NCBI GenBank assembly: GCA_019637995.1
Contig: JAHBUQ010000001.1
Location: forward strand, 806,001 to 870,000
From: Ignavibacteriota bacterium
Lineage (GTDB): Bacteria; Bacteroidota; Ignavibacteria; Kapaibacteriales; UBA2268
DNA length: 64,000 nt
Reading direction: 5' to 3'
Part shown: in pieces, positions 39,144 through 50,882 of the stretch
Layout of the letters: each line of letters starts with the position of its first letter
Position numbering within the stretch: position 1 is the first letter of the stretch
Program-made: the position numbers and the translations under genes
Notes under the pieces: generated by a model
What the model was told of the DNA's origin: nothing
Databases searched by the model: none
What the model saw: only the letters and a program-made list of their open reading frames with translations

Positions 39144-39652
39144 GATGCCAAAGCACTATAAAGTTTGACCTGTGATTTATCTTCGCATTCTTCAAGTAAT
39201 TTTGTAATCGTTTTATTTGATAACGGATCTCTTAAACTGCCTGCTATTTCTACAGTTGGCATTAATACAAATTTTCTTTTGCTAAAATACGGATGAGGTA
39301 GTATCAGTTTTTTATCATTGACAACATTTTCTCCATGTAAAATTATATCAATATCAATTTCACGCTCATGCCAATGTTCACGCTTTTGCCTGCCGGAAAT
39401 ATATTCTATACTTTTTGCAAAGTATAAAATTTCTTCTGCTGAGTATGAAGTTTTACCAATTAAACTAACATTCAGAAACCAAGGCTGATTCTCGTATCCA
39501 AAAGGTTCTGATTCGTAAAATGAAGATATTGAAATATCCGAAATTAGTTCTGATTCCTTAAAAAGTTTAATTGCCGTTATAATATTATCATAACGGTCCC
39601 CGAGATTAGACCCTAAAGAAAGAAGAACAGGTGTATCGGTATTATTCTTCAT
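39140..39652 (-). CDS. folK: HPPK, 2-amino-4-hydroxy-6-hydroxymethyldihydropteridine diphosphokinase
   Basis: I take the start at ATG 39652 (MKNNTDTPVLLSLGSNLGDR), giving about 170 aa, the usual length; an upstream in-frame extension would lie entirely within folB. Motifs are LSLGSNLGDR, FLNVSL, and HEREIDIDIIL followed by LPHPYFSKRKFVL. It catalyses pyrophosphorylation of hydroxymethyldihydropterin in folate synthesis. It overlaps folB by 11 nt and dnaG by 4 nt, a tightly coupled operon. Confidence 0.95.
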   Translation of the reverse strand: MKNNTDTPVLLSLGSNLGDRYDNIITAIKLFKESELISDISISSFYESEPFGYENQPWFLNVSLIGKTSYSAEEILYFAKSIEYISGRQKREHWHEREIDIDIILHGENVVNDKKLILPHPYFSKRKFVLMPTVEIAGSLRDPLSNKTITKLLEECEDKSQVKLYSALAS

Positions 39653-40052
39653 CTTGGTTTGGTTGTATTCTTGAAATAGATTGTTCTGCTTCAATAAAAC
39701 CCACAACCCGTCTCATTGGAACTGACATCTTTCTGATTCTGACATTTGCCATTTCGAGATTATCAAATTTATCCATAAGCATATTCAGAATATCTGAACA
39801 CAAAGTTTCTACTAAATTATAATTTTCTGAACCTGTAATAATCTCAGAAACACAAAATAGGGCTTCCTCGTAATTAACTGAGTATTTTACATCATCATTG
39901 ACAATAGCTGTTTTGGCATCATAATACAAATCAAGATCAACTTCGTACTTTCCGCCTAATTTTTTTTCCTCTTCCTTAACACCGTGATATGCGTAATATT
40001 CTGCGTTTACTATGCTAAGCCTTGTAAGATCAGTATGGAACATATATTTCAT
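39642..40052 (-). CDS. folB: Dihydroneopterin aldolase
   Basis: This roughly 136-aa folate enzyme makes hydroxymethyldihydropterin from dihydroneopterin, directly upstream of folK's reaction. Family residues are AEYYAYHGVKEEE, DVKYSVNYEEAL, NLVETLCSDI, and VRIRKMSVPM. I prefer ATG 40052 (MKYMFHTDLTRLS) or the ATG 9 nt later. An ATG 45 nt further upstream would add a hydrophobic leader unlike the family. Confidence 0.92.
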   Translation of the reverse strand: MKYMFHTDLTRLSIVNAEYYAYHGVKEEEKKLGGKYEVDLDLYYDAKTAIVNDDVKYSVNYEEALFCVSEIITGSENYNLVETLCSDILNMLMDKFDNLEMANVRIRKMSVPMRRVVGFIEAEQSISRIQPNQDEE

Positions 40053-40196
40053 CCTTTTAATTTCATTAAAAAAAATAAAGACGTAATTGATTTGCAAAAA
40101 TTTAACGATATAAAAAAAATATAAACATTAGATTTGTTTATGGAATTGAAATTATAGCCAATAATTATTCAATATTTTGAAATAAGTTCGGGGATT

Positions 40197-40872
40197 GGGA
40201 ATTGGGAATTGGGGATTAGAGGCTGGGGCTCGGGTTTCGGAATAGCAACGTAGTTGCGAACTATTAATAGAAAAGGTATCGGGGCTAGGGTGTCGGGTGT
40301 CGGGAAAAAGCTGCGTAGTAGCTTACTATTAATAGAAAATAAGTTAAATAGAGAAATCCCACTTTTAAAAAGGGGGAAAGCTCGCTTGCGAACAGGGGGA
40401 TTAAGACAAAAATTAGTTGATAGTTATTGAGTTATTGAGTTTAAATTCAAATCCCTCTGTCACTGCGTGACATCTCCCTTTAATAAGAGAGAAAATAGAA
40501 AATGCAAAATCCCCATTCCAATTCTTCCTAACCCCTAACCCCAAGCACCGATACCTTTTCTATTAATGGCACGCAACTACGTTGCTATTCCGACACCCGA
40601 AACCCAGAACCCCAAATTCTTCTCCTACGGAGTTGGCTATTTGGTGCAGTTGGGGGCAAATTCTGCTATTAAGTGTAAGCAACTACGTTGCTATTCCGAC
40701 ACCCGAAACCCAGTCCCAAATCCTACTCCTACGGAGTCAGCTATTTGATGGCTTCGGGCTTACTTTCTGCTACTAATGGTACTCAACTACGTTGCTATTC
40801 CAAAAACCGATACCCGATACCCGATACCCAGAACCCGATACCCAAAACCCAGAACCCGAAACCCAGAACCCA
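40197..40872. repeat. Cluster of small-hairpin and G/C-strand simple repeats (no gene)
   Basis: No credible gene lies in this stretch. It opens with GGGAATTGGGAATTGGGG-type purine repeats. An imperfect inverted repeat about 45 nt long follows (around 40236-40281 against 40544-40595, containing GCAACGTAGTTGC / GCAACTACGTTGC and TTCTATTAAT). Between them are a GC-rich piece (AAAGGGGGAAAGCTCGCTTGCG...) and CTGTCACTGCGTGACA. Next comes a ~106-nt tandem unit starting CAACTACGTTGCTATTCC at 40574, 40680 and 40784, each also holding CTCCTACGGAG, a mini-hairpin with a TAC loop. It ends in CCCGATACCC/CCCAGAACCC runs. Open frames here are by-products of the repeats. Confidence 0.85.
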
Positions 40873-41038: not shown

Positions 41039-42046
41039 TTATTTTTTTCTATTCAATTTTTTGAGTTTCTTTTGAGTATTACTTATTGATTCAATAAACT
41101 GTTTTTCAACATCCGATAGTTCGTTTATAGTTTTTGATTTATATAATTCATATTCAGAATCTGCTTTTTTTTGTGCTAATTCGGCAGAAATTTTTCCTGC
41201 ATTAGCAAGTAATTCCTGACGTGACATTTTAATAAAACCATCAAGAACTTCAATCCAATCTTTCATGTACATAGGTCTTCTCTGCATAGCATTTACTTCG
41301 GCAATATCAAGATAAGCTGATACAAGCCGATTGAGAATGCCAAGTTCCTCATCATTTAAATAATTTTTGGCAATTGAAATCTCGGATTTTGTTGGTTTTC
41401 TACCTTTAAAACTTGTCAAACCCATAAACGGCAATTCAGAATTGGCTCTTTCAAATATAATTTCAGCAGCAGTATGACCATGCGCCGCCCAATGAAGTTT
41501 ATTCTGTACTGTCTGAAAAAATAATTCCGTAGTTTCAGATTTAGGATTATAATCAATACTTGTAGCATAAATTTCTAATACTTTACGATAAAAGACTTTT
41601 TCCGATGAGCGAATATCCCTAATGCGGTTAAGTAGTTCTTCAAAATAACCACCTCCTTGTTTGAGGAAGTCGTCATTCATTGTAAATCCTTTTATAAGAT
41701 ATTCTTTCAATCTTTCAGTAGCCCAAATTCTAAACTGTGTACCTCTTAAAGATTTAACTCTATAACCAACCGAAATAATTACATCAAGGTTGTAAAGATT
41801 TGTAGGTTTGGTAGAAAAATCGGAAATTCCGATTTTTCTTACAGAATTTTCCTCAACAAGTTCACCCTCATTAAAAACATTCAAAATATGTTCATTAATA
41901 GTTGACCTTGATTTTTGGAATAAATCTGTCATTTGGTCAATTGTGAGCCAGATAGTGTCATTTTCGAAGCGGGTTTCAATTTTAGTCTTACCGTCTTCAG
42001 TTTGGTATATAATTAACTCAGTTAATGGTTTATTTTGGCTTGTCAC
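41039..42046 (-). CDS. RhuM family protein
   Basis: The 335-aa protein is of the virulence RhuM family. Its N-terminal DNA-binding-like region contains ETRFENDTIWLTIDQMTDLF...STINEHI, then VGYRVKSLRGTQFRIWATERLKEYLIKGF, the family's most recognisable segment. A helical C-terminal half follows. The start appears to be GTG at 42044-42046. RhuM genes are frequent in restriction-modification and defence islands, and this one lies just downstream of the type IIG gene with a 61-nt gap. The biochemical role is not established. Confidence 0.88.
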   Translation of the reverse strand: MTSQNKPLTELIIYQTEDGKTKIETRFENDTIWLTIDQMTDLFQKSRSTINEHILNVFNEGELVEENSVRKIGISDFSTKPTNLYNLDVIISVGYRVKSLRGTQFRIWATERLKEYLIKGFTMNDDFLKQGGGYFEELLNRIRDIRSSEKVFYRKVLEIYATSIDYNPKSETTELFFQTVQNKLHWAAHGHTAAEIIFERANSELPFMGLTSFKGRKPTKSEISIAKNYLNDEELGILNRLVSAYLDIAEVNAMQRRPMYMKDWIEVLDGFIKMSRQELLANAGKISAELAQKKADSEYELYKSKTINELSDVEKQFIESISNTQKKLKKLNRKK

Positions 42047-42107: not shown

Positions 42108-45100
42108 CTACTCCCCCTCCACAATCTTAATTTCTTCTTCTGTCAGTTCGTAGAGCTGATAGACGAGTTGGTCAATTTTATTGTCAGTATATTTTATGCG
42201 GGCTTGCAGGTGCTCTTTTTGTTCCGGAAGTGTCGCGGCTTGCAAGTCCTTGTTTAGTTGGAGCATTGTTTCGACTAACTTAATTAGTTGGTTCTGTGTT
42301 TCGGGGGCTGGGTTTTGGGGGATAGGAAATAACCTAAATACTTTTACCCCAATATCAACACCAATACCTCTTTTTTTTCCATTCATATTGAACCAATATC
42401 CACCGACTTTTGAATTCATTAAACTTAGTAAAAATTTTAAATCATATTTATTTGATTTTTGAATAATAACAGAAAATGAGAATCCACAATAATATTTTTT
42501 CTCATCATAAAAGAATTCAGGTTTTAAAAACATTCCCTTACAAATCAATTTTGGCTCATCAAAAAATCTTTGTTCTCGTGTTCTATGTATCCCATAGGGA
42601 GCATTTGATGATGTAATAAATTCTTCCATATTGTCAAGATGTTTTTTTATATTGGGATAAATGCCTCTTGCTATTCTCTCCCTCTCAATTTTACCTAAAT
42701 ACAGCAAATACTCATTCTGATAATTAATACTATATCGCTTTACATGACTAATATTCAAATATGGTTTTAATAGTTCTAATTCTGAAGTAGTTAATTCCAA
42801 TGATGAAATCTCCTTTTCATTTAATACAAAAACTCCATCACCAATTTTTATATTTTTATTTTTGGTATTTGTAAAAAGATTTTTAGAAATCTTATCAGTT
42901 GCTTCTACCACTCCCTGTGAAACTTCAAAATGGTTGACTAATGAATCACAGTTATTGAAAATATCAAGTCCACAACTTAAATTTATTTTATCAACCCCGA
43001 ATAAATTGCTATTATTAATTCTATGATTATCATATGAATCAATATTATCATTTGGATCATCCTGACTTATACTGTAAATTTTTGTGTAATATTCTTTTTC
43101 ATTTGCTTTTCTAAATATTGAAATATTATGTTTACCACTTACATCCTTGAAGACCTTGTAATTATCAAAATTTACGATAATTTCAATTGTAAGTTCCTTT
43201 TTTATTCGATTAATTAGGATAGAAGCACCATCACTTTTCATCCAATAACTGTTCGTTATTATACCGAATAGTCCATTTTGTTTTAAAATATCAATACCAC
43301 GATGTACAAAATAATACCAATAATCCATTTTACCTTGATGGTATAATTGACCAATTCTTGATTTTAAAATTGGTTCAAATATTTCTTGGCTTCCCCTTTC
43401 TTTTAGATACGGCGGATTACCTATCACTACATCAAAGCCACCTTGCTTGAATACCATCGGAAAAGCACTCTCCCAGTTGAAAGGTTTAATCTTCTTTTCG
43501 GCTCCCGGCTCGAAATCAATCTGATTATCATAAAAATCTATGTCAATAAGAGAATTACCACTTTTGATATTGCTGTCAAGTGAGGGCAGTACCCTTTCAT
43601 GCAGAAACGATAACTGGCTTATTGATGCTTCCGTTTCTCCTTCCATTGCCTTCAGCATTAAAGAGAGCTTTGTAACCTCGACAGCGTTTGTGTCAATATC
43701 AACACCGTAAATATTATTCAGAAGTATATCTTTCTTAACCTGTGTAGTCAAATTTCCGTCCGGGCGGAGAAATTTATCCTTATTCTTAATATTTGAATTA
43801 TGATAGTATTCCTTATGCCAATCCAAAAGATACTGATAAGCACCAAGCAGAAAAGAACCACTACCACACGCGGGGTCACATATTTTTATTTTCTCGATTT
43901 CCTCCGGAGTAGCGAACTGATTGTAGAAGGAATTAGGAATTAGGAATTGGGAATTAGAAATAAAACAATTTCCTTCTTCCTCATTCCTATTTCCTACTAT
44001 ACTATTTTCGAATTGATATTGCTTATCATTGATGACAGCATTTTCTGAATTCCATTTAGTTTCTCCCAAATTGGAGTCATTACCTCCCTGCTGATAAATT
44101 CTAATTTCACTGCTAATATCAGATGAGTTTCCAATTCCGTCGCTGAACCTCTCGCAATTATCAAAAACCTTCTGAGTTCCGGTCTGGAAATTCTTCCCCA
44201 TCCCTCCGCTATGTTTGCCGGAATTGATGTAACCGCTCTTTTTATTTGACTTGTCAGACCAAACATTTCCTCCTTCGGCAGTTCCCTCGCCATTTGATAT
44301 GTCAAAACTGTCAGTTCTATTGATTGTTTCCAAATTTCCAGGTCTTTGTAACTCTTGACCTTGTCCAATTTCATTTTTTTCTCCATATTTATTATAATAA
44401 ATTTGCTTTTTTAACAAACTATTCTCACCATCATTATTCCCTTTTCCTAATTCCCAATTCCTGCGTCCTATTTCCCCAATCAACTTACCAACAGTATTCT
44501 TAACTATATAATCAACAATATATTGAGGTGTATAATAAACCCCACCGGCTTTGCGGACTTCTGGTTTCTCTTCTATTTTTATTCTGTGTCCGGGAGTAAT
44601 ACGGATAATTTTACCAAGATACTGCTCATACGAATGACCAAGAATTTCAACAGGTATTACTGAAAACTCATAAGGGCTTTTCGGATAATACATTTCTTCG
44701 ATTATTGTTTTCAGTATCTTATCATCAATTTTCAGATTATCAGTAATCCTATCCTTTTGATAATCAAAAAGTCCGGAATTGTATTTTAAATCGGCAGTAT
44801 GGAACAATGTTTTCAGATTTTCATAGGAATTATTACCGATTAGATTAAATAACTGATTTTCACTTTCAACTCCGCGGTCTTCGCATATTCTTAAAAATAT
44901 TATCCTGTCCATAATTTTTTGAAGTGAATAATTCAATTCATCTTCATCAATAGCCGGATTGCGGTTGACAATATTTCGAGCAAGCAAATCTCTCCAGGTG
45001 TCAAGTGATTTCAGAAATTCAGCGTCAACTCCGGTAGTACCTTTTTTGCCTTTGTTAGAGCTTACAAACTTATCAAAACTGCCTTTGAGAACCATTTCTT

Positions 45101-45614
45101 TAGAGAAGGTCTCCCAAAGAAAATCAAACTCTTTCAGATAATCTTTGTAAGTGAAATATTTAATTCTCGAAACAGAGGCTTTATCTGTTGGTGCGGGCTT
45201 TATGGTACAATCATAAATGGAAAATTCTTCAAAATCTGAAATAATTGAAATCGGCATTTTAGCACTCCAACCGTATCGTCTTAGTTGATAAGCCGGTTCG
45301 ATTGTGTCTTTTATTGATACACTTGGCTTTTTGGCTTCCAGAAAAAATTTCTTCTGACCATAAATTGTAAAGCAGTAATCCGGAGCTTTGGTTTTTCCGG
45401 CAACTTTGATTTTATCTTCGTGAATAACTTCACGGTAACTTTCAGCAAGTCCGGCTCTGTTGTTTATATCCCAACCTAATGCTTCAAAGAATGGATTGAT
45501 ATAATCCGTCCTTGTCTGAGTTTCGTTGAAACTACCTTTTTTATATCCTTCGACATGATAATCGAATCTTTCAGCTAATTTTTCAATCGTATCTTTCGCA
45601 TCAATTTTGTTCAT
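42108..45614 (-). CDS. Type IIG (Eco57I-like) restriction-modification enzyme with internal insertion
   Basis: The 1168-aa single-chain nuclease and adenine methyltransferase has an N-terminal PD-(D/E)xK site, PD79...E93-A-K95. A helical connector and YYTPQYIVDYIVKNTVG (about 365) follow. The methylase motif I is DPACGSGSF (about 578-586), the catalytic NPPY (about 730), and the C-terminal half is a TaqI-like target-recognition region ending in QLVYQLYELTEEEIKIVEGE. Residues about 384-563 are foreign to the family: a Gly/Asn/Ser/Gln-rich stretch that is the out-of-frame translation of an embedded four-helix-bundle gene. Without it the enzyme would be about 990 aa, the usual size. Whether the inserted form is active is unknown, but the frame is intact throughout. 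Confidence 0.9.
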   Translation of the reverse strand: MNKIDAKDTIEKLAERFDYHVEGYKKGSFNETQTRTDYINPFFEALGWDINNRAGLAESYREVIHEDKIKVAGKTKAPDYCFTIYGQKKFFLEAKKPSVSIKDTIEPAYQLRRYGWSAKMPISIISDFEEFSIYDCTIKPAPTDKASVSRIKYFTYKDYLKEFDFLWETFSKEMVLKGSFDKFVSSNKGKKGTTGVDAEFLKSLDTWRDLLARNIVNRNPAIDEDELNYSLQKIMDRIIFLRICEDRGVESENQLFNLIGNNSYENLKTLFHTADLKYNSGLFDYQKDRITDNLKIDDKILKTIIEEMYYPKSPYEFSVIPVEILGHSYEQYLGKIIRITPGHRIKIEEKPEVRKAGGVYYTPQYIVDYIVKNTVGKLIGEIGRRNWELGKGNNDGENSLLKKQIYYNKYGEKNEIGQGQELQRPGNLETINRTDSFDISNGEGTAEGGNVWSDKSNKKSGYINSGKHSGGMGKNFQTGTQKVFDNCERFSDGIGNSSDISSEIRIYQQGGNDSNLGETKWNSENAVINDKQYQFENSIVGNRNEEEGNCFISNSQFLIPNSFYNQFATPEEIEKIKICDPACGSGSFLLGAYQYLLDWHKEYYHNSNIKNKDKFLRPDGNLTTQVKKDILLNNIYGVDIDTNAVEVTKLSLMLKAMEGETEASISQLSFLHERVLPSLDSNIKSGNSLIDIDFYDNQIDFEPGAEKKIKPFNWESAFPMVFKQGGFDVVIGNPPYLKERGSQEIFEPILKSRIGQLYHQGKMDYWYYFVHRGIDILKQNGLFGIITNSYWMKSDGASILINRIKKELTIEIIVNFDNYKVFKDVSGKHNISIFRKANEKEYYTKIYSISQDDPNDNIDSYDNHRINNSNLFGVDKINLSCGLDIFNNCDSLVNHFEVSQGVVEATDKISKNLFTNTKNKNIKIGDGVFVLNEKEISSLELTTSELELLKPYLNISHVKRYSINYQNEYLLYLGKIERERIARGIYPNIKKHLDNMEEFITSSNAPYGIHRTREQRFFDEPKLICKGMFLKPEFFYDEKKYYCGFSFSVIIQKSNKYDLKFLLSLMNSKVGGYWFNMNGKKRGIGVDIGVKVFRLFPIPQNPAPETQNQLIKLVETMLQLNKDLQAATLPEQKEHLQARIKYTDNKIDQLVYQLYELTEEEIKIVEGE
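43942..43957 (+). repeat. Right arm of 16-nt inverted repeat flanking the embedded gene
   Basis: AGGAATTGGGAATTAG is the exact reverse complement of 44447-44462. It lies within a short run of GGAATTA repeats. Confidence 0.9.
43997..44386 (-). CDS. Four-helix-bundle protein (IVP/S23-like) nested in the type IIG gene
   Basis: This 129-aa protein is encoded on the same strand as the type IIG gene but in a different frame. It matches the four-helix-bundle family first seen in intervening sequences of 23S rRNA genes: SYKDLEIWKQSIEL at the start, LPKEEMFGLTSQIKRA, VTSIPANIAEGWGR and the RRFLIIARGSATELETHL segment. Members are related in fold to the Avd accessory protein of diversity-generating retroelements; no reverse transcriptase or template repeat is present here. 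A perfect 16-nt inverted repeat flanks the gene, suggesting it arrived as a small insertion. The function of the family is unknown. Confidence 0.9.
   Translation of the reverse strand: MEKKMKLDKVKSYKDLEIWKQSIELTVLTYQMARELPKEEMFGLTSQIKRAVTSIPANIAEGWGRISRPELRRFLIIARGSATELETHLILAVKLEFISREVMTPIWEKLNGIQKMLSSMISNINSKIV
44447..44462 (+). repeat. Left arm of 16-nt inverted repeat flanking the embedded gene
   Basis: CTAATTCCCAATTCCT is the reverse complement of 43942-43957. Together the arms bracket about 500 nt including the four-helix-bundle gene. Confidence 0.9.
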
Positions 45615-50780: not shown

Positions 50781-50832
50781 TGTCAGTCTGAGTGGAGTCG
50801 AAGACTAAAGAATACACTTCGACTTCGCTCAA
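50781..50832. repeat. Dispersed palindromic repeat, copy 1
   Basis: A 52-nt unit TGTCAGTCTGAGTGGAGTCG...CTTCGACTTCGCTCAAT folds into a stem in which GTCGAAG pairs with CTTCGAC. It is repeated about 100 nt downstream. It resembles the 'cttcgacttcgctca' intergenic repeats common in this group of bacteria. Confidence 0.85.
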
Positions 50833-50882
50833 TGTGACACGACTCGCTCTATGTGACACTGGGATGTTGTTATGATATGTTT

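Follow-up and report, generated by a model that had tools for sequence, protein, structure and literature searches.

The intergenic region between folB and a RhuM-family gene in this Ignavibacteriota genome (3.92 Mb, six contigs) holds a repeat cluster of 680 nt, and it raises the question of which gene its hairpins go with and how they came to form an array of their own. The window, the whole stretch of 64,000 nt that we analysed, corresponds to C1:806001-870000. A preliminary description had related the cluster to a four-helix-bundle gene elsewhere in the window and had hinted at a common repeat or mobile family, with the gene possibly deleted here. One half of this idea survives, since the cluster is a gene-less copy of a dispersed repeat; the other does not, since the partner of the units is a Y1 HUH transposase and not the four-helix-bundle gene. 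We think it probable that the cluster is a REP-like array of the hairpin targets of a subclass 1.2 Y1 transposase, present without its gene and enlarged on the spot by tandem duplication.

A 26-nt unit, CTATTAAT-n5-GCAAC-TAC-GTTGC with close variants, occurs five times within 40242-40798: twice on the minus strand (inverted) and three times on the plus strand, the latter in a tandem array (Table 1). Each unit is made up of a 13-nt tail (consensus CTATTAACAGGTC; CTATTAAT-n5 in the window), a 5-bp stem and a 3-nt TAC loop. A model of the unit, R1, which was built from 46 units flanking the transposase genes of relatives and from none in this genome, gives the five window units the top five ranks among the 19 matches listed in 64 kb. 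The core CAACTACGTTG is found at 40574, 40680 and 40784 (+) and at 40246 (-), and with up to one mismatch these four are its only matches in the whole window, a number reached by 1 of 100 shuffles; the third tandem copy is a slight variant of the core, TCAACTACGTTGC. The start-to-start distances of the tandem units are 106 and 104 nt, and Tandem Repeats Finder (TRF) counts 2.4 copies with a period of 104. The TAC-loop mini-hairpins in ~106-nt units, the inverted copy upstream and the strands with G or C runs at both sides, all of which the preliminary description had noticed, are thus borne out. In addition to its three tailed units, the tandem array contains two hairpins, CTCCTACGGAG at 40622 and 40726 (the only two matches in the window with up to one mismatch, a number reached by 0 of 100 shuffles), whose stem and loop are common to units elsewhere. 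We read them as partial or decayed units because they are without the conserved 5' tail, and R1 matches their hairpin part only.

Table 1. Features of the repeat cluster and of the genes on either side, in window positions
Feature	Position	Strand	Evidence
folB	39642-40097	minus	Pfam
G-rich heptamer array GGGAATT x4, outer left edge	40190-40217	+	TRF period 7, score 42; 19/21 period-7 matches
Left arm of 86-nt inverted repeat	40223-40308	+	81% complementary to 40522-40607
Unit 1, tail CTATTAATAGTTC + GCAAC-TAC-GTTGC	40242-40272	-	R1 35.2 bits, E 9.7e-7; fold 5 bp, 3-nt loop
Unit 2, CTATTAATAGTAA + GCTAC-TAC-GCAGC, one mismatched pair	40307-40337	-	R1 26.8 bits, E 1.5e-4
Spacer of inverted pair	40338-40557	.	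220 nt; best tblastn for transposase E 6.3
Right arm of 86-nt inverted repeat	40522-40607	+	
Unit 3, CTATTAATGGCAC + GCAAC-TAC-GTTGC	40558-40588	+	R1 27.7 bits, E 8.6e-5
Tandem array	40560-40815	+	TRF score 321
Tail-less hairpin CTCC-TAC-GGAG	40622-40632	+	R1 partial match 10.9 bits
Unit 4, CTATTAAGTGTAA + GCAAC-TAC-GTTGC	40664-40694	+	R1 20.5 bits, E 0.0065
Tail-less hairpin CTCC-TAC-GGAG	40726-40736	+	R1 partial match 12.6 bits at 40725-40737
Unit 5, CTACTAATGGTAC + TCAAC-TAC-GTTGC	40768-40798	+	R1 16 bits, E 0.096
C-rich heptamer array CCCGATA / CCCAGAA, outer right edge	40800-40872	+	TRF periods 7, 14, 21; 18/21 period-7 matches
RhuM-family gene	41039-42046	minus	Pfam

The arms of the inverted repeat are 213 nt apart, and the whole cluster folded as single-stranded DNA has a z of -8.5, with none of 20 shuffles equally stable; this long fold consists of the inverted pairs forming one structure. 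Folded singly, the five units reach a z of only -0.4 to -2.2, so that a single hairpin is unremarkable by energy, and 63 of 200 shuffles are as stable as unit 2 alone. The spacer of the inverted pair, which matches the position of the transposase gene at the gene-bearing locus, shows no remnant of that gene by tblastn. A second hairpin family lies in the spacer at about 40367-40404 and 40449-40482 (AAAGGGGGA..hairpin..AGGGGGATT and AAATCCCTCTGTCAC..GTGACATCTCCC), and it has relatives at C2:1103.2k and at C5:146.4k, the latter near short AT-rich tandem repeats. Another short repeat of the window is CGACTTCGCTCAATGTGACA, twice in tandem at 50820-50859. Rfam at gathering score gave no match in the 64-kb window.

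The units are dispersed through the genome. The core CAACTACGTTG has 15 copies genome-wide, against 4 of the reversed control pattern, and R1 at E<=1 finds units at no fewer than 25 places (150 of 452 candidates scored). Ten of these 25 surround the transposase gene, one on its 3' side (C3:220386) and nine on its 5' side (C3:220941-221371), and the other 15 fall at eight sites away from it. By BLAST of the cluster together with the exact core, clusters are located at C1:21.5k, 948k, 951.6k and 1327.5k, C2:115.5k and 541.9k, C3:221.0k and C5:147.7k; R1 adds a site at C2:1022.7k. Most units of this genome are arranged in tandem and not as doublets, and the repeat spacing is particular to the locus: 106/104 nt in the window, about 51 nt on C3, 64 nt at C1:1327k and about 110 nt at C1:951k. 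With tens of copies, the number is low for a REP. The TAC-loop units are interspersed with units that have a TTC loop and a tail of the same kind (CTATAAATATTTAATCTC-TTC-GAGAT type) at C1:951.7k, 1327.8k and 21.6k and at C2:115.7k. Separately, an array of the octamer GAGTTATT and its variants occupies the contig end at C1:1513000-1513516, where it probably accounts for the stop of the assembly.

The genome has one full-length IS200-like Y1 gene, at C3:220466-220927 on the minus strand, which encodes a protein of 153 aa. By eye, the gene has three hairpins on its 3' flank and about ten on its 5' flank, with their tails mostly towards the gene, except that the last two on the 5' side are reversed. 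The gene is bracketed by inverted units with most tails inward, and the window shows the same layout without the gene. The protein matches Y1_Tnp in Pfam (E 9.6e-25) and the NCBIfam model NF033573 for IS200/IS605 transposases (67.5 bits, above the cut-off of 55), and it falls below the cut-off of 80 for NF047646, REP_Tyr_transpos (40.7 bits). Its motif YILNQELHH is the subclass 1.2 signature Y-x3-Q-x2-HH, and the class 2 motif Y-x3-NP is absent; H55, H57 and Y115 are invariant across 21 aligned rows. In the best model of the predicted fold (pLDDT 92.1, pTM 0.85; the other four models have pLDDT 68.5-88.8), Foldseek matches are to the ISDra2 and IS608 TnpA proteins and to the RAYT-REP complex 4er8 (E 2.9e-6, TM about 0.55-0.6). 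In Weeksellaceae the transposase gene has the same two neighbours in 30 of 43 loci, which indicates that it is inherited in place; together with the single copy in this genome, this conserved neighbourhood speaks for a gene that is resident and RAYT-like, and against an active IS. Up to eight matches are seen in some genomes of the phylum draw described below. Two weaker Y1 matches of this genome, at C1:35193-35576 (L056; RAYT-like by eye) and at C2:260620-260796 (L057; a broken gene by eye), have hairpins of their own beside or inside them (CTCCACCTTTAAGGTGGAG and GAACGGTTTGAAACCGTT, respectively) and are another instance of one enzyme with one hairpin.

The pairing of units and transposase was followed through three sets of loci from other genomes. 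Set A comes from 546 relatives in named genomes, of which it holds the best 80 (58-71% identical; 43 are Weeksellaceae by title). For set B, 148 genomes were drawn evenly from the phylum of the window and 30 loci were opened in them; without the genome's own locus the set has 29 (51-62% identical), and it covers 29 of the 39 other genomes under the gene cut-off of E<1e-38. Set C consists of 20 distant matches (30-50% identical) picked by hand from the draw of 148 genomes; one of these, L187, is a fragment of the near clade, and another, L179, is cut by a contig end. A GC-rich triloop hairpin with a stem of at least 5 bp stands no more than 150 nt from the gene, on one side or both, in 78 of 80 loci of set A, 25 of 29 of set B and 2 of 20 of set C. 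Such hairpins occur in 157 of 2964, 12 of 218 and 10 of 167 single control windows of the same loci, that is in about 5%, which for two sides taken together gives an expectation of about 10%. They are present on both sides in 65 loci of set A and 9 of set B. Tetra- or pentaloop hairpins (stem at least 6 bp) have the opposite distribution, with 3/80, 9/29 and 14/20 loci in sets A, B and C (control windows 102/2964, 11/218 and 3/167). One flank count, which required at least 80% of the flank, retained 78/80, 29/29 and 19/20 loci at 150 nt.

Loop and orientation are also matched. Within 200 nt of set A genes, a GTA-loop hairpin stands upstream in 62 of 80 loci and a TAC-loop hairpin downstream in 57, with both in 48; the opposite orientation is seen in 5 and 11 loci, and the control gives 9 and 12 of 2089 windows. 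Of the 30 loci of the phylum draw (own locus included), 7 have the GTA or TAC loop upstream, 8 have it downstream and 1 has it on both sides; the exact loop is rarer there because loops such as TTC/GAA stand in its place. A looser count of tail plus hairpin, in which tetraloops were allowed, was dropped for its high number of wrong orientations. We regard the pairing of the transposase with the units as well supported.

Hairpin class follows the protein tree. After removal of rows more than 85% alike, 90 of 129 proteins were kept, which with the genome's own made a tree of 91 rows (the placement of the long, oddly composed L176 being unsure). All 66 rows with a triloop, our own among them, fall in one clade of 73 with support 100/90, which also includes 3 tetraloop rows and 4 without a hairpin label; the 18 rows outside this clade comprise 14 with a tetra- or pentaloop, 4 with none and 0 with a triloop. 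The subclass 1.2 signature is borne by 79/80 proteins of set A and 28/29 of set B, and both hairpin classes belong to subclass 1.2 because 17/20 proteins of set C bear it as well. Hairpins of this kind beside the transposase gene in several bacterial phyla suggest that this little-studied group has targets of its own. Contigs of set A are labelled Bacteroidota, Ignavibacteriota, Planctomycetota, Verrucomicrobiota, Acidobacteriota, Fidelibacterota and KSB1, where single labels may be wrong because many of the contigs are metagenome-assembled. In a held-out Bernardetia plasmid (L266), the upstream flank of tnpA has GTTGC-TCT-GCAAC triloop hairpins in both orientations, with a tail of the same kind, and the downstream flank has no clear hairpin. 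A search of the plasmid collection for members from Cyanobacteria yielded two matches at E<=1e-10, both from Bacteroidota, the rest being weak IS200-like matches (60 of 349 records sampled), and blastn of one set C locus gave no match.

Several distant subclass 1.2 genes (L170, L174, L175, L178, L180, L182 and L184) stand with longer tetraloop hairpins such as ACGGGC-TTTA-GCCCGT. In this genome, GGGCTTCAGCCC hairpins are seen at C3:218.9k, 448.2k and 448.4k, and no gene of that sort is among its three Y1 matches.

The anatomy of the unit was drawn from 281 units that lie no more than 400 nt from set A genes and were selected for a TAC or GTA loop and at least 4 of 5 pairs. Relative to the loop, their conserved block extends from about -18 to +8, and no consensus is clear beyond it. 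The consensus is CTATTAACAGGTC-GCTCC-TAC-GGAGCT, with a 5-bp stem and GGTC, TGTC or similar at the foot. In the 46-unit alignment there are changes on both sides in all five stem pairs, a figure that is biased because those units were chosen for tail and stem. Selection by tail alone is less biased, and it gave at least 4 of 5 stem pairs in 129 of 174 units within 400 nt of the gene and in 17 of 227 farther off. The orientation of these tail-only units differs by side, with 91 minus and 15 plus upstream and 43 plus and 25 minus downstream.

The association has its limits at the level of whole genomes. Among the 148 genomes, units were found in 37 (R1 at E<=0.01, with stricter filters) and the gene in 40 (under the cut-off of E<1e-38, which was chosen after the table of matches was known); 21 genomes have both, 16 have units without the gene and 19 have the gene without a unit. 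Fisher p values, uncorrected for lineage, are 7e-6 for at least 1 unit, 7e-5 for at least 3 and a non-significant 0.10 for at least 10. Nine of the 16 unit-only genomes belong to one genus (g35). One genome with no transposase match at E<=1e-10 carries fourteen tandem units of 70-72 nt (L205; G056 C23:45.9-46.9k). When dispersed units from 10 genomes were compared with transposase flanks, 21 of 57 were strictly best to the flank of their own genome, where about a tenth would be expected, and the observed mean was reached by 12 of 2000 permutations (for the tail alone, 18 of 57 and 24 of 2000); the best matches to the own flank all come from four of the ten genomes, and the test fails in the other six. 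G112 was left out, having no dispersed unit. A comparison of one locus of G013 with two sister species, G034 and G131, showed a repeat element of roughly 260 nt that is missing from both sisters, which have a different gene there instead; this is not a clean empty site because the flanks differ by a whole gene, and the comparison of this one locus yielded none.

The heptamers at the edges of the cluster led the preliminary description to the four-helix-bundle gene. Against the 19/21 and 18/21 period-7 matches at the two edges, the background mean is 9.8. Arrays with a strong period of 7 (at least 15 of 21) flank the window cluster left and right, and the clusters at C1:948k and C1:951.6k have such an array on one side, which amounts to 4 of 18 cluster flanks compared with 0.8% in the background, and the unit array at the transposase locus has no heptamers. 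We therefore see the heptamers as a companion of some clusters and not as part of the unit. G-rich heptamers of this sort occur in Xanthomonas and Nostoc, according to the part of PMC4692102 available to us. The genome has one PF05635 (four-helix-bundle) gene, and of the R1 matches listed in the window none that rises above chance stands next to it. R1 at E<=1 found 0 units in the 99,450 bases of 30 PF05635 loci from other genomes, which is the outcome that the preliminary description had itself named as refuting a link of the units with four-helix-bundle genes. The likeness between the flanks of the two loci is genuine and at the same time generic: period-7 flanks (p 4e-10; period 7 only among periods 5 to 10) are characteristic of the 30 PF05635 loci of the phylum, with no common unit. 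In 21 of the 30 the two arms of a locus are inverted to each other (at least 19 of 24 matches), compared with 4.9% of mismatched pairs. This periodicity around four-helix-bundle genes is probably what the preliminary description saw, and the gene with its inverted heptamers looks like a mobile cassette family of its own. In the window, the four-helix-bundle gene (43997-44386, TIGR02436) lies inside the ORF of an Eco57I-type methylase (42108-45614, minus), which is open throughout, and is flanked by inverted GGAATTA-like heptamers (43928-44462).

Movement of the units by the enzyme is what we infer from these patterns. The protein would bind the folded TAC strand and cut near the tail with Tyr115, and it could thereby seed units elsewhere in trans; seeded units would then multiply locally into tandem arrays, each with a spacer peculiar to its locus. 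Another possibility is that the inward pair of inverted units moves as a single block, like a REPIN. The inward inverted layout, the 220-nt spacer and the lack of any trace of a gene are the reasons for viewing the window cluster as a REPIN-like copy that later grew in tandem. TnpA_REP serves as the model for strand recognition and guided cutting, as far as the available part of PMC8266576 describes it. By that analogy, the enzyme may recognise one strand of the folded hairpin and cut at a dinucleotide that the letters 5' of the foot determine, and the rigid 13-nt tail with its outer CT would fit a cut site plus guide.

The same units could instead be the LE and RE hairpins of an IS200/IS605-type IS, with the window cluster as a decayed or internally deleted copy (MITE/PATE). 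The NCBIfam name of the transposase points that way, and so does the bracketing of the gene by inverted units, which has the outline of IS ends. Against it stand one full-length copy in the genome, many tandem units per side in place of one per end, a gene that the Weeksellaceae neighbourhood shows to be inherited in place and a cluster without trace of the gene, and we regard this explanation as unlikely. Replication slippage and recombination might also have spread the units locally, with the transposase incidental. Tandem arrays with locus-specific spacers do look like slippage products, but slippage accounts neither for the eight further sites at which the unit stands apart from the gene nor for units beside nearly every relative's transposase gene examined, so we hold slippage alone to be quite unlikely.

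It is very unlikely, in our judgement, that the hairpins serve the host, as mRNA 3' ends, attenuators or sites of protein binding, and that Y1 enzymes merely insert at them. The intergenic position of the window cluster would suit such a role, and insertion sequences are reported to target REPs (PMC1525189, in the part at hand). A host function would not lead one to expect that hairpin class follows transposase clade, that the tails point mostly inward on both sides at fixed spacing or that the stems covary within a set common to several phyla; it leaves the locus-specific tandem spacers unexplained, and Rfam has no match. That the cluster is an element of the four-helix-bundle gene which lost that gene seems extremely improbable to us. 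The heptamer arrays at both places and the periodic, often inverted flanks of the 30 sampled loci are what it has in its favour, whereas those loci have no units, the genome has one such gene, the heptamers of the two places differ, and none are found at the unit array beside the transposase. An array of transposase hairpin targets, present without the gene, thus remains the explanation that we prefer for the window cluster.

More tentatively, and with rather more doubt than belief, we propose that subclass 1.2 is a third REP branch, separate from IS200/IS605 and from class 2 RAYTs, with a clade-specific hairpin code (a triloop with a 13-nt tail, or a tetra- or pentaloop) in many phyla; it would seed tandem arrays and could mobilise the cyanobacterial small dispersed repeats (SDRs) that are embedded in heptamers. 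If our explanation is true, a published but unexplained group of single-strand transposases gains its partner, a class of short hairpin repeats of several phyla is explained, and a natural series of matched enzyme-hairpin pairs becomes available for the study of how DNA structure is read. Our results also suggest that genes named 'IS200/IS605 family transposase' in databases are, in this branch, of REP type rather than IS type.

In the available text of Quentin 2018 (PMC6006769), subclass 1.2 is close to the IS200 transposases, low in copy number, hosted mostly by Cyanobacteria and Bacteroidetes and, as a rule, devoid of IS200-type terminal structures ('no' in its Table 1). The REP prediction rules given there require a stem of 7 bp or more together with GTAG/GTGG, rules that the untagged 5-bp hairpin would fail, and atypical hairpins are stated to have been found by hand for subclass 2.6 and class 3. 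In the open-licence literature, a search for the letter strings of the unit gave no title on bacterial repeats among the matches listed, and the titles and abstract openings give no hairpin partner for subclass 1.2, an absence that is weak evidence. Some Chryseobacterium transposases are called RayT in PMC11194056, whose main text, as far as available, has no word starting with 'palindrom'.

The system described here resembles subclass 1.2 as published in its Y-x3-Q-x2-HH signature, its length of about 150 aa, its Bacteroidetes hosts and its low copy number, and it differs in that hairpins flank nearly all members examined, in place of the general lack of IS200-type ends reported in the accessible part of that work. 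With the REPtron of class 2 TnpA_REP/RAYT (PMC6006769, same part), it shares a Y1 HUH protein, inverted short hairpins that flank the gene, dispersed copies, a hairpin family that follows the protein clade and a low number of gene copies. The REPtron protein has Y-x3-NP in place of Y-x3-Q-x2-HH, its stem is at least 7 bp long compared with 5 bp here, it has a GTAG/GTGG foot in place of the conserved 13-nt tail, and it has hundreds of copies compared with the tens that we found. IS200/IS605 elements such as IS608 and ISDra2 are alike in fold, in catalytic residues and in a subterminal hairpin with determinants 5' of its foot, but here the gene is not repeated through the genome as in an IS, there are many units per side and the Weeksellaceae gene neighbourhood is conserved. 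The inverted pair of the window, which is gene-less and able to fold as one long hairpin, is similar to a REPIN (PMC3116915, in the part available), although one inward pair was examined and the units of this genome are mostly in tandem. CGTC-tagged REPs (PMC3733652, likewise in part) are also bacterial hairpins, and many units here have TGTC or GGTC right before the stem. Those REPs have stems of 8-9 bp, loops of 4-5 nt and no transposase, in contrast to the 5 bp and 3 nt of our units. In work by Elhai from 2008, the SDRs of Nostoc are said to be hairpins of 21-27 nt that are often embedded in heptamer repeats, and they are not known to have a mobiliser. The units described here are 26 nt long, and heptamers accompany some of their clusters.
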